This document shows, one piece after another, positions 37,142 through 42,339 of a stretch of DNA of 64,000 nt (position 1 is the stretch's first letter; each line of letters opens with the position of its first letter). Origin of the DNA: Candidatus Latescibacterota bacterium (GTDB lineage Bacteria; Latescibacterota; UBA2968); the NCBI GenBank assembly GCA_022823725.1, contig JAJEHL010000001.1, forward strand, positions 1 to 64,000. The letters run 5' to 3'. The notes under the pieces are model-generated. The model was not told where the DNA came from and did not search any database. It worked only from the letters and a program-made list of their open reading frames with translations. A program made the position numbers and the translations under genes.

Positions 37142-37687
37142 ATGGAGAAAATAGAGAAAAAAGTAATACCGGGCTGGACCGGGAGATGCTATGAGGATTT
37201 CGAGGTGGGCGAAGTTTATCGAAGCCGGTTCGGGCGGACGGTGACGGCGGCTGACAACCAGTTGTTCACGCACCTGACCCTGAATACCAATCCGCTTCAT
37301 TTTGACGAGGAGTACGCCCGCCGGACACGGTGGGGAAAGATCCTGGTGAACAGCACGTTTACGCTCGCGCTGGTCGTGGGAATGAGTGTCCCGGATGTGA
37401 GCGAGAAGGCGATGGCGAACCTGGGTTGGAGCGAGGTCCGGCTTCCGCATCCGGTATTTGTGGGAGATACGCTTTATTGCGAGACGGAGGTGCTCGCCAG
37501 GCGGGCGTCGAAGTCGTTCCCGGAAGCGGGTATTGTGAAGGTGCGTACGCGGGGCGTGAATCAGGATGGCCGCGTCGTCATAGATCTGACGCGCAGCGTG
37601 ATGGTCTATAAGAGGGCGCATGCGCCGTCGGGGGATGCCTTTCCCGAAATTCACGAGGAGAAAGACGGGTCAACTACCCAACGCTGA
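37142..37687 (+). CDS. MaoC-family enoyl-CoA hydratase, 3' end altered by IS
   Basis: Encodes 181 residues of hot-dog-fold MaoC type. The catalytic stretch TAADNQLFTHLTLNTNPLHFDEEYA has the D/N-x-H pattern (Asp and His). It hydrates or dehydrates an unsaturated acyl-CoA, plausibly mesaconyl- or itaconyl-CoA given the lyase and CoA-transferase genes that follow. The last residues after EEKDG (STTQR) are encoded by the right end of the inserted IS element. Without it the frame would read GAC GGG TGA and stop at once, two bases into the former junction. The enzyme core is therefore untouched. Upstream, AAAGGGG precedes the ATG. Confidence 0.82.
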   Translation: MEKIEKKVIPGWTGRCYEDFEVGEVYRSRFGRTVTAADNQLFTHLTLNTNPLHFDEEYARRTRWGKILVNSTFTLALVVGMSVPDVSEKAMANLGWSEVRLPHPVFVGDTLYCETEVLARRASKSFPEAGIVKVRTRGVNQDGRVVIDLTRSVMVYKRAHAPSGDAFPEIHEEKDGSTTQR

Positions 37688-37850
37688 AGCAGTTGGGCTT
37701 GTCGCTCGGGCATAAATGCACTCGGCAACTTTAGGCTTGTTGACACAAAGCCTTTGCTCGGATATTCCGAGCAGCGTTGCGGTCAGCATGGTCTTTATGA
37801 CCACACACTTTGCACAGGAAGGATGCCTGGGTTTGTCTATTGGATTTCTC
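37669..37850 (-). ncRNA. Predicted omega (re)RNA from tnpB 3' end
   Basis: In this family the guide RNA is made from the tnpB strand across the 3' end of the gene and the right end of the element, and its guide is the adjacent flank. Here the guide would be CCGTCTTTCTCCTCGTGAAT (minus strand, 37668 downward), which lies within maoC. The 5' limit is a guess from family size; the right-end hairpin and boundary are seen directly. Confidence 0.5.
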
Positions 37851-38822
37851 ACAATGTCCACACTCGGCACATGTTTGGCTGGTATATTTGGGGTCAACAG
37901 GTTCTATGCGGATACCAGCACGCTTTGCCTTATATTCGATAAAGGTGCGCAGTTGGAAGAAAGACCACCCAGACATTTTAGCACGCTGAGGCTTGCGAAA
38001 CCGTTTCTGGCTCTTGCGGATGCCTTCGAGGTCTTCAAGAGCAATCGCTTTGCCAGTGTCTTTAGCCTTCTCAACAATGCGTTTGGAGATGATGTGGTTG
38101 GTATTTCTACGAAACCTGCTCTCTCTGCCGGAGAGTAGGGAGAGTTTTCTGCGAACATTCTTGGGTCTCTTGCCTTGCTTGACACGGGCAGACGCTTTCT
38201 GTTGGAGCGACTTTTTCAGATCGTGCATTTTCTGCCGGACATTTTCAACCGTGTCGCCAGAAAATGTTTCACCATCGTCTGTAACAGCAAGGTTGGTGGT
38301 GCCGAGATCAACGCCAATGAAGTCTGTCGTCGGTATCGGCGTGCCATCGGGTACATCGACAGAGACAAGCAGAAACCACTTGCCGTCTTTGCGGAGCACA
38401 AGGTCTGCCTGTCCTTTGGCATAGCCAAACTGCTCACGCTGATAGTTGCCCATCAACATTGGCACAAGAACACGCCCCTCAAGCGTCAGCAAAGAAACAC
38501 GGTCTATGCCCTTAAAGCTATACAGGCGTTGATCATAGGGTATGCTTGCATGCTTACGGAACGATGGTTGCACTGACTTATCGCGCTTATACGCCTCTAC
38601 AACTTGAGCAATACAGCGAATAGCCATTTGTGCAGAGAGACCAAACAAGTGGCGTAAGTCTGAGTAGTATAGCTTTTGTAGTGCAAACTTATTCGCCAGC
38701 TTGCGCTCATAAGCCTTCGGAGCAAGCCAATTGGCAGCTTCGTTGAACCGCTCAATAGTGGCTTTTAGCTTCTGTGCTATAGCAACATCTGGCAACAGTT
38801 GTATTTGAAGTGTCAGTTTCAT
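37731..38822 (-). CDS. tnpB: TnpB RNA-guided nuclease
   Basis: Encodes 363 residues from MKLTLQIQ (the open frame runs 12 codons further, but this is the family start). The RuvC-like site is complete: FIGVDLGTTNLAV (first Asp), IALEDLEGIR (Glu), and HADRNAARNI (last Asp). The zinc finger has C-x2-C pairs CAECG and CKVCG. The N-terminal WED/REC-like part is typical, and there is no frameshift, so the protein is probably active. TnpB cuts DNA next to its TAM under omega-RNA guidance and favours retention of the element. Neighbouring CoA-ester genes are unrelated to it. Confidence 0.92.
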   Translation of the reverse strand: MKLTLQIQLLPDVAIAQKLKATIERFNEAANWLAPKAYERKLANKFALQKLYYSDLRHLFGLSAQMAIRCIAQVVEAYKRDKSVQPSFRKHASIPYDQRLYSFKGIDRVSLLTLEGRVLVPMLMGNYQREQFGYAKGQADLVLRKDGKWFLLVSVDVPDGTPIPTTDFIGVDLGTTNLAVTDDGETFSGDTVENVRQKMHDLKKSLQQKASARVKQGKRPKNVRRKLSLLSGRESRFRRNTNHIISKRIVEKAKDTGKAIALEDLEGIRKSQKRFRKPQRAKMSGWSFFQLRTFIEYKAKRAGIRIEPVDPKYTSQTCAECGHCEKSNRQTQASFLCKVCGHKDHADRNAARNIRAKALCQQA

Positions 38823-38950
38823 ATTGAAAAATATAGTCAATATGCTTTCGGTTATCAAGGTGGTTTTTCAGCCTTGTTATACGCTAAAGCTATAACGGGA
38901 GAGCCCTTACACTCCCACAGCTAAAGGCTGTGGGCTTCACGGGCTGTTAG

Positions 38951-39826
38951 GTGAAGTCGATGCGGTCCTGGCTTTTTGTGCCGGGGCACCAGCAGCGGAT
39001 GATCGACAAGGCTCTGGGCCTGCCGGCGGATGTGCTGATATTCGATCTGGAGGACGGCGTCCCGGAGGCTGAGAAGGATGTTGCGCGTAGGCGTGTCGCT
39101 GCCGCGCTGGGCGGCGTGCGTGGCGGCCCGGCGCGATTTGTCAGGGTTCACGAAGCCGGGGCTTCCGAATTGGAGGCCGATCTGCAGGCGATTGCGCGTG
39201 CGGGGCTGCAGGGACTCGTGTTGCCCAAAGTGCAGGGGCCGGAGGATGTGCTTCGGGTGTGCCGGTGGCTGGACCAGCATGAGACCAGAGCGGGTATTCC
39301 ATCCGGAAGCGTCGGGCTTCTGGCAATCATTGAGAGCGCCCGGGGCCTGGTTCAGGCACCTGCGATCGCATCCGTTACGCCCAGGCTGGTGGGGCTTATG
39401 TTTGGCGCAGAGGATTTTGCGCTGGATATGGGCCTCTTTTCGCATCCGGGACAGGGATTGGTCAATTATGCCCGATCGGCGCTGGCGGTGGCTGCGGCAA
39501 GCGGACAAATCCGGGCTATAGACAAGGTATTTACGGACATCAGCGATCCTGACGGACTGGTTGTGGAGGCGCAGCGGGCCAGGGATCTGGGGTTTGCCGG
39601 AAAAGCCGTGATTCATCCGGGTCAGGTTGGGGTGGTGAATGAAATTTTCAGTCCTACGGAGGTTGAAGAGAGGTGGGCACGGCGAATTGTTGAGGCTTTT
39701 GAACGGCGGGCGGACGAAGGCCCGGCGACTGTGGATGGTCGGATGGTAGATAGGCCGATTCTGGAACAGGCCCGGCGGATCCTGGAGCGTCTCGAGGAAG
39801 AGGGCAATGACCGGCAGGCCGATTGA
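38951..39826 (+). CDS. CitE/HpcH-type CoA-ester lyase
   Basis: Encodes 291 residues from a GTG (MKSMRSWLFVPGHQQ), or 288 from the ATG at 38960. Before the IS insertion GAGGAG at the end of maoC stood eight bases before this GTG, which supports it; that site is now ~1.3 kb away. Family features: SWLFVPG, the metal Asp/Glu in IFDLEDGVPEAEK, RFVRVHE, AIIESARG, and FGAEDFALDMG. These enzymes cleave malyl-, beta-methylmalyl- or citramalyl-CoA to acetyl- or propionyl-CoA plus glyoxylate or pyruvate. Flanked by MaoC and CaiB/BaiF genes, it probably cleaves a product of the hydratase. Confidence 0.85.
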   Translation: MKSMRSWLFVPGHQQRMIDKALGLPADVLIFDLEDGVPEAEKDVARRRVAAALGGVRGGPARFVRVHEAGASELEADLQAIARAGLQGLVLPKVQGPEDVLRVCRWLDQHETRAGIPSGSVGLLAIIESARGLVQAPAIASVTPRLVGLMFGAEDFALDMGLFSHPGQGLVNYARSALAVAAASGQIRAIDKVFTDISDPDGLVVEAQRARDLGFAGKAVIHPGQVGVVNEIFSPTEVEERWARRIVEAFERRADEGPATVDGRMVDRPILEQARRILERLEEEGNDRQAD

Positions 39827-41191: not shown

Positions 41192-41731
41192 ATGGGTTAC
41201 TCTGCATTTGCTGTAGCGAATTACTTTTTAGACCTTGCCAAAAAGGATGGTGTTGAAATAACACCATTGATGATACAAAAACTGGTGTATATTGCTCACG
41301 GCTATTATCTCGCTTTTACTGCGAGAGATAACCCACCTAATGGCAGACCATTAGTTAATGATGAATTCGCGGAGGCTTGGCAATATGGTCCAGTATTTCC
41401 ATCACTTTACCATCATTTCAAGCACTTTGGAAGGGATCCAATAACAGTGTTTGCAGAAGACATTGAGTTTTTATACGATGATGGTAGTAGAAAACTCGAC
41501 ACAAAAGTTACAACTCCTAAGATAGATCAGGACGATGAGTTCTCCTGTGCTTTATTAAATAAAATTTGGGAGGTTTACGGAGAATATACAGGGTTACAGC
41601 TTTCTGATATAACACATAGAGAAGGAACACCCTGGGCCAAAACATGGAAAAGAAGAGAAGGATTTAGAAATGCACATATACCGAATAAGGCCATAAGAGA
41701 GTACTACCTAAATAGAATAGGAGGCCAATAG
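41192..41731 (+). CDS. Panacea-domain (DUF4065) protein, antitoxin-like
   Basis: Encodes 179 residues. The Panacea/SocA-like domain is plain: SAFAVANYFLDLAKKDG, ITPLMIQKLVYIAHGYYLA, EAWQYGPVFPSLYHHFK near residue 70, and a helical tail with EYTGLQLSDITHREGTPW, a hallmark of the family. Panacea proteins are antitoxins or proteolytic adaptors (SocA, PanA). The region is markedly more AT-rich than its neighbours. AAGGAG precedes the ATG; the next gene starts on the base after this stop. Confidence 0.85.
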   Translation: MGYSAFAVANYFLDLAKKDGVEITPLMIQKLVYIAHGYYLAFTARDNPPNGRPLVNDEFAEAWQYGPVFPSLYHHFKHFGRDPITVFAEDIEFLYDDGSRKLDTKVTTPKIDQDDEFSCALLNKIWEVYGEYTGLQLSDITHREGTPWAKTWKRREGFRNAHIPNKAIREYYLNRIGGQ

Positions 41732-42049
41732 ATGGGAGAACTCTCAAAATTAGATATTCGACCAGAACAATCAAGTGAAACGATTCAAACTCGTACTGAA
41801 GATGCGGTCTTTGCCACTATTAAGGAATTACAGAAAGAATCTCAAGAGCTCAATCAAGAAAGTGCATCTGTCAACCGCGATAACCAGATTCAACAATCTA
41901 AGACCTCTTCTATGACTTCGTATGCACTCTCGGTCGCCGGACTTATAGGCGGATTGATGGCTGGTAGTTCTTTTGGAACGTTAGGGATTGTCATTGGAAG
42001 TATTATCGGCGGTTCGTGCGGATACTGGGTGGAAAGTAGAGATCAATGA
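41732..42049 (+). CDS. Small protein with glycine-zipper membrane tail (possible toxin)
   Basis: Encodes 105 residues. The first ~65 are polar and Gln/Glu-rich, likely helical. The last ~40 (SVAGLIGGLMAGSSFGTLGIVIGSIIGGSCGYW) form a glycine-rich hairpin of the kind that inserts in membranes. No known family name can be given. It abuts the Panacea gene (TAG then ATG, with AGGAGG upstream) and overlaps the next gene by four bases, so all three are co-expressed. Membrane-active toxins are known partners of Panacea antitoxins. Confidence 0.6.
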   Translation: MGELSKLDIRPEQSSETIQTRTEDAVFATIKELQKESQELNQESASVNRDNQIQQSKTSSMTSYALSVAGLIGGLMAGSSFGTLGIVIGSIIGGSCGYWVESRDQ

Positions 42050-42339
42050 CAATAAATAGAGGTCTGATTCTCGGTATAGTGCTTCTTCTGATTTACTGTG
42101 TAGTCTGTGCCTTTCGTAGAGAAGTTCCTGATCTTCCAAAACTTGTTTCTGTTGTTGCAATCGGTGTTGGGATTGATACCGGACTATTTCTCGGATATAG
42201 TGTGCTTTTTTTTGAGGATATAGCGTTTGGAGAATTCAGTGACCATAGATTTGCGATTCTTGTAGGCGGTATTGCCATCATCTATGTATCTATAGTCGGT
42301 CTATTCAGATGTTTTAGCCGCTCGGAGACGAAAAATTAG
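42046..42339 (+). CDS. Small three-helix membrane protein in Panacea operon
   Basis: Encodes 97 residues with three hydrophobic segments: LILGIVLLLIYCVVCAF, VVAIGVGIDTGLFLGYSVLFF and FAILVGGIAIIYVSIVGLF. No family is recognised. Its start overlaps the previous stop by four bases (ATGA). It is the last gene before a strong terminator. It may be the toxin itself, a partner of the glycine-zipper protein, or an immunity component. Confidence 0.55.
   Translation: MTINRGLILGIVLLLIYCVVCAFRREVPDLPKLVSVVAIGVGIDTGLFLGYSVLFFEDIAFGEFSDHRFAILVGGIAIIYVSIVGLFRCFSRSETKN

Follow-up and report, generated by a model that had tools for sequence, protein, structure and literature searches.

The locus studied here is best read against a few systems that are already described. 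In IS608 of Helicobacter pylori, short DNA guides pair with the cleavage words at the ends of the element, and the crystal structure shows guide bases 1 and 2 paired with target bases 2 and 1 (PMC5934647). In ISDra2, the omega-RNA comes from the 3' end of tnpB and the right end of the element, its guide lying in the right flank (PMC8612924, PMC10097598). The TnpB of a Sulfolobus islandicus IS605 element loses its cutting activity when its TAM is replaced by the right-end word (PMC11043419), and a published study reports that TnpB can drive the spread of such elements in plasmids, in the manner of a gene drive (PMC11870625). As for the IS1341 elements, it is described as unclear whether they are autonomous or decayed (PMC9956272).

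The window analyzed here is a stretch of 64,000 nucleotides from a Latescibacterota genome, and its minus strand carries a 1,282-bp element at 37669-38950, the features of which are collected in Table 1. The only gene between the two ends is tnpB, and no Y1 transposase gene (tnpA) was found within the element; as the absence of tnpA defines the IS1341 group, the element is classed as IS1341-type. We consider it a tnpB-only IS200/IS605 element with a probability of about 0.9; it is a fresh and clear example of a type of system that is already known. An in-frame TTG lies farther upstream of the tnpB ATG, at 38858. An Rfam match to HEARO was rejected, with a score of 20.6 bits against a cut-off of 83 and a location on the opposite strand.

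Table 1. Features of the element and of its flanks (window coordinates).
Feature	Sequence or remark	Position	Strand	Basis
Whole element		37669..38950	-	Empty sites in relatives; ends fixed via other copies
tnpB	363 codons from ATG (37734-38822) plus stop (37731-37733)	37731..38822	-	
CL, presumed TAM	TCAC, in the flank, outside the element	38951..38954	-	Other copies
GL, 4-nt DNA guide	GAAG, foot of left hairpin	38935..38938	-	Covaries with CL
Left subterminal hairpin	CCCACAGC-CTTTA-GCTGTGGG	38914..38934	-	Fold
omega-RNA stem H1 (predicted)	Within tnpB	37755..37773	-	Fold, genus copies
omega-RNA stem H2 (predicted)	Ends at the stop codon	37734..37752	-	Fold, genus copies
Pseudoknot 5' side (predicted)	GTCAAC, in H2 loop	37739..37744	-	Covaries with right end
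omega-RNA stem H3 (predicted)	Differs among copies	37701..37729	-	Fold
GR, 4-nt DNA guide	CAAG, foot of right hairpin	37698..37701	-	Matches CR; relatives
Right subterminal hairpin	CCCAACTGCTTCAGCGTTGGG	37677..37697	-	Fold; conserved
Right end	GTTGAC, CR (TGAC) plus pseudoknot 3' side	37669..37674	-	Covariation
Presumed native guide	CCGTCTTTCTCCTCGTGAAT, in host flank	37649..37668	-	Analogy with ISDra2 (PMC8612924)

Excision of 37669-38950 joins GAGAAAGACGG to GTGAAGTCG, and the initial annotation had proposed both these exact ends and this empty site, to be checked on relatives without the insertion and on other copies of the element. Such relatives do exist: the window site is found without the element on 13 related contigs, namely in eight other genomes of the genus, on contig C190 of genome G005, and in four genomes from another family of the order (G015-G018, upstream flank identity 84-86%). 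The site is uninterrupted there, and the predicted join is identical letter for letter in seven (G001, G002, G004, G006, G007, G009, and G005 C190), with one or two substitutions in G003 and G010. One other species shares the insertion of the window, G005, whose contig C193 carries the element at 99% identity, so that occupied and empty states occur together in the same assembly; these probably stem from two populations, since the empty contig is 95% identical to the window flanks and the occupied one 97-99%.

Taken alone, the window copy leaves its ends ambiguous by one base, because the element and the right flank both start with C. A leftward shift of both ends by a single base (37668-38949) yields the same join here, but copies at other sites exclude it: together with them, the copy at locus L032, where AAAATCAC abuts ACCCC, fixes the ends at 37669-38950, as proposed. 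Three further insertions of the family (L002, L032, and L058) lie at unrelated sites that are empty in five, nine, and seven genomes, respectively, and show no target duplication; all four insertions with empty sites lie 3' of a fixed short word. The left ends of the copies at L005 and L060, where a simple empty site is absent, were left unplaced.

In the host, the insertion splits a GTGA overlap in which the stop codon of a MaoC-like dehydratase gene meets the GTG that starts a CitE-like lyase gene (window 37640-38960). The dehydratase gains five residues, and the lyase keeps its GTG but is separated from an upstream ribosome-binding-like GAGGAG. Elsewhere in the window, at 41192-42339 on the plus strand, lies a SocA/Panacea antitoxin-like gene (PF13274, 1.7e-16). 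Behind it, in head-to-tail order, come two small genes coding for 105 and 97 aa, of which the 105-aa one matches LeoB weakly; this is possibly a Panacea-type toxin-antitoxin locus.

The initial annotation had also read the left flank as a common TTCAC, of which alignment of the other copies retained four bases. Where homology or empty sites set the start of the element, the word to its left is TCAC throughout the window lineage (seven copies); the base preceding this word varies, being T in the window, L002, and L004, G in L031, C in L099, and A in L032, so the target is the tetranucleotide TCAC and the five-base version is excluded. In a sister lineage, the flank word read from the L058 empty site is TCAT, which also dismisses TTTTAC as a candidate for L003 and L058; L003 is grouped with TCAT by its flank, which matches that of L058. 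Other tnpB families of the genus have TTAC or TTAT at the equivalent position, next to a near-identical left end. By its place at the insertion sites, TCAC would be the TAM of this TnpB; no TCAC TAM was found in the papers searched. Among empty sites, the presumed TAM has been naturally lost in G010 (L015), where ATG replaces GTG at the window site and TCAC becomes TCAT, and in two genomes where the L032 site reads TTAC (L159 and L166). A 46-bp single-hairpin remnant with TTAC on its left was also seen at L100 2848-2893 (G000:C2, about 584847-584892) and at the same locus in L135 (G005:C83); it consists of a TTAC-type left end and the right end of another tnpB family, fused at their common hairpin.

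Both ends follow the DNA-guide rule of IS608, GL GAAG going with TCAC and GR CAAG with TGAC. Across families, GL changes in step with the flank word: GAAG or GATG accompanies TCAC, AAAG accompanies TTAC, and AAAA accompanies TTAT. Two cases depart from this and would involve G:T pairs; the GAAG of L058 matches TCAT only through a G:T pair. On the right, AAAG goes with TTAC in relatives. Pairing of the guides with their cleavage words is supported here by covariation rather than by a structure. The subterminal hairpins from which the guides extend (z -3.4 on the left, -2.0 on the right) are kept in all copies.

The last 122 nt of the element fold far better than shuffled sequences (z -4.6), and the 3' end of tnpB is predicted to fold as an ISDra2-like omega-RNA with its guide in the flank. 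All copies of the genus have the same series of structures: H1 inside tnpB, then H2, an H3 that varies, and finally the right hairpin. The six bases that close the element are the complement of the H2 loop (loop first, GTCAAC:GTTGAC in the window), and the two sides change together in relatives (GTCAAT:ATTGAC, GTCAAA:TTTGAC, GTCATG:CATGAC, GTAAGC:GCTTAC, GTAAGT:ACTTAC, and GTAATC:GATTAC). Among 14 distinct combinations, pairing holds at 96% of positions, vs. 77% after shuffling, and none of 20,000 shuffles reached 96%; combinations were made unique for this test, relatedness remains in the shuffles, and the pseudoknot and guide sites were placed by eye from hairpin positions. At the level of sequence, the predicted pseudoknot is thus backed by compensatory changes. 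As the H2 loop pairs with the right end, the right-end cleavage word would be read twice, once as DNA and once as RNA.

The protein itself is recognized as a guided TnpB by NCBIfam (205 bits, cut-off 100) and contains OrfB_IS605 and Cas12f1-like TNB domains according to Pfam; its named near relatives come from Latescibacterota MAGs. The tnpB reading frame is intact. So are the RuvC residues and the zinc finger, as noted from the start: D172, E263, and D347 of RuvC and the zinc cysteines 318, 321, 337, and 340 are invariant in 18 relatives. All nine full-length tnpB copies compared are open, with dN/dS values of 0.06-0.18, and TnpB is under purifying selection.

The natural guide had been placed in the right flank, and its target bears this out, the exact position following from analogy with ISDra2. 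The target with its TCAC, TCACCCGTCTTTCTCCTC, occurs without mismatch at the empty site in seven genomes, one of them G005 (on C190), and a search of the element's own genome did not find it; there, the occupied right junction reads TGACCCGTCTTTCTCCTC, with one mismatch. Empty site and occupied right end thus differ by one base, TCAC vs. TGAC. If it works like ISDra2 (PMC8612924), TnpB would cleave the empty site beside TCAC and must distinguish TCAC from TGAC, sparing its own locus. We give even odds to a further idea, namely that the right-end word is doubly locked, by GR (DNA, read by the transposase) and by the H2 loop (omega-RNA, read by TnpB), while having to differ from the TAM by one base or more to avoid self-cutting; under such constraints, a change of word would require coordinated changes, and the right ends TGAC and TTAC and the left flanks TCAC, TCAT, and TTAC would record such switches in the family and its relatives.

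With no tnpA in cis and a single Y1 transposase match elsewhere in the genome, which belongs to a different element, of tnpA-tnpB type, with 2 of 21 positions changed in the right hairpin, mobilization in trans appears the likeliest. In the proposed cycle, both end hairpins would be bound by a Y1 transposase acting in trans, which would cut after CL (TCAC) and CR (TGAC), each recognized via its 4-nt DNA guide, GL or GR; the element would then move as single-stranded DNA, leaving a seamless empty site in which TCAC adjoins the right flank. Carrying an omega-RNA that consists of its own 3' end and the right flank, TnpB would cut this empty site next to the TCAC, and repair off an occupied copy would put the element back, the occupied locus being spared because its right junction is TGAC, not TCAC. 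No Y1 match was found in G005 or in the single-contig G007; for an element lacking a transposase of its own, this makes present mobility uncertain. In G006 (L092, contig C124), an apparent IS3-like insertion has landed in the tnpB gene of a tnpA-tnpB element.

One has to consider that the element could be a decayed IS605, its tnpA lost, its copies immobile relics, and its TnpB kept by chance. The missing tnpA and the fragments present in G007 and G009 would fit, but the genus genomes hold several intact copies each, all open and under purifying selection, and clean insertions at differing sites in closely related species imply that movement postdates the loss of tnpA from the family; we therefore find decay improbable. 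Still less credible, to the point of being very improbable, is a TnpB that the host has adopted for regulation or as a Cas12f-like defense nuclease, outside any mobile cycle. Matches to Cas12f are indeed strong in sequence and fold: the AlphaFold model (pLDDT 85.5, pTM 0.52) resembles Cas12f 8dzj (E 1.7e-21) and ISFba1 TnpB 8iaz (E 2.3e-15), its domain arrangement being poorly fixed and the TM-scores only 0.4-0.5. Against adoption stand the numerous copies, which occupy different sites, have complete ends, and are matched by empty sites in sister species, the guide that is in every copy the insertion flank itself, and, with regard to a regulator or defense role, the RuvC residues that are present; end hairpins and multi-copy insertion likewise favor a TnpB over a CRISPR effector.

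A mobile tnpB-only element thus remains the preferred reading, and its family, with four insertion sites proven through empty sites and TnpBs about 90% identical yet differing in native flank word (TCAC, TCAT), is a useful natural test case in which TAM change, self-sparing, and IS1341-type mobilization in trans become directly testable. With IS608, it shares hairpin ends, a 4-nt word kept at the left flank, the lack of target duplication, and the same rule of GL/GR pairing with CL/CR; IS608 differs in carrying tnpA and in its words TTAC/TCAA with guides AAAG/GAAT, instead of TCAC/TGAC with GAAG/CAAG (PMC5934647). ISDra2 shares the origin of the omega-RNA, the guide in the right flank, the RuvC and zinc finger, and a pseudoknot that ties an early loop to the final bases of the element (PMC8612924, PMC10097598), which the cryo-EM structure shows at the equivalent place (PMC10097598); it differs by the presence of tnpA, a five-base TAM (TTGAT), and a TnpB of 408 residues vs. 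363 (PMC8612924, PMC10097598). The IS1341 group has the same lone tnpB between hairpin ends, 1.25-1.39 kb long with a TnpB of about 362 residues or more, and differs in bacterial phylum and sequence, the insertions of the window family being proven separate by empty sites (PMC9956272). Finally, the S. islandicus IS605 TnpB has a right-end word that resembles the TAM without equaling it, TTCAC vs. TTTAA, whereas the two words of the window element are one base apart (PMC11043419).
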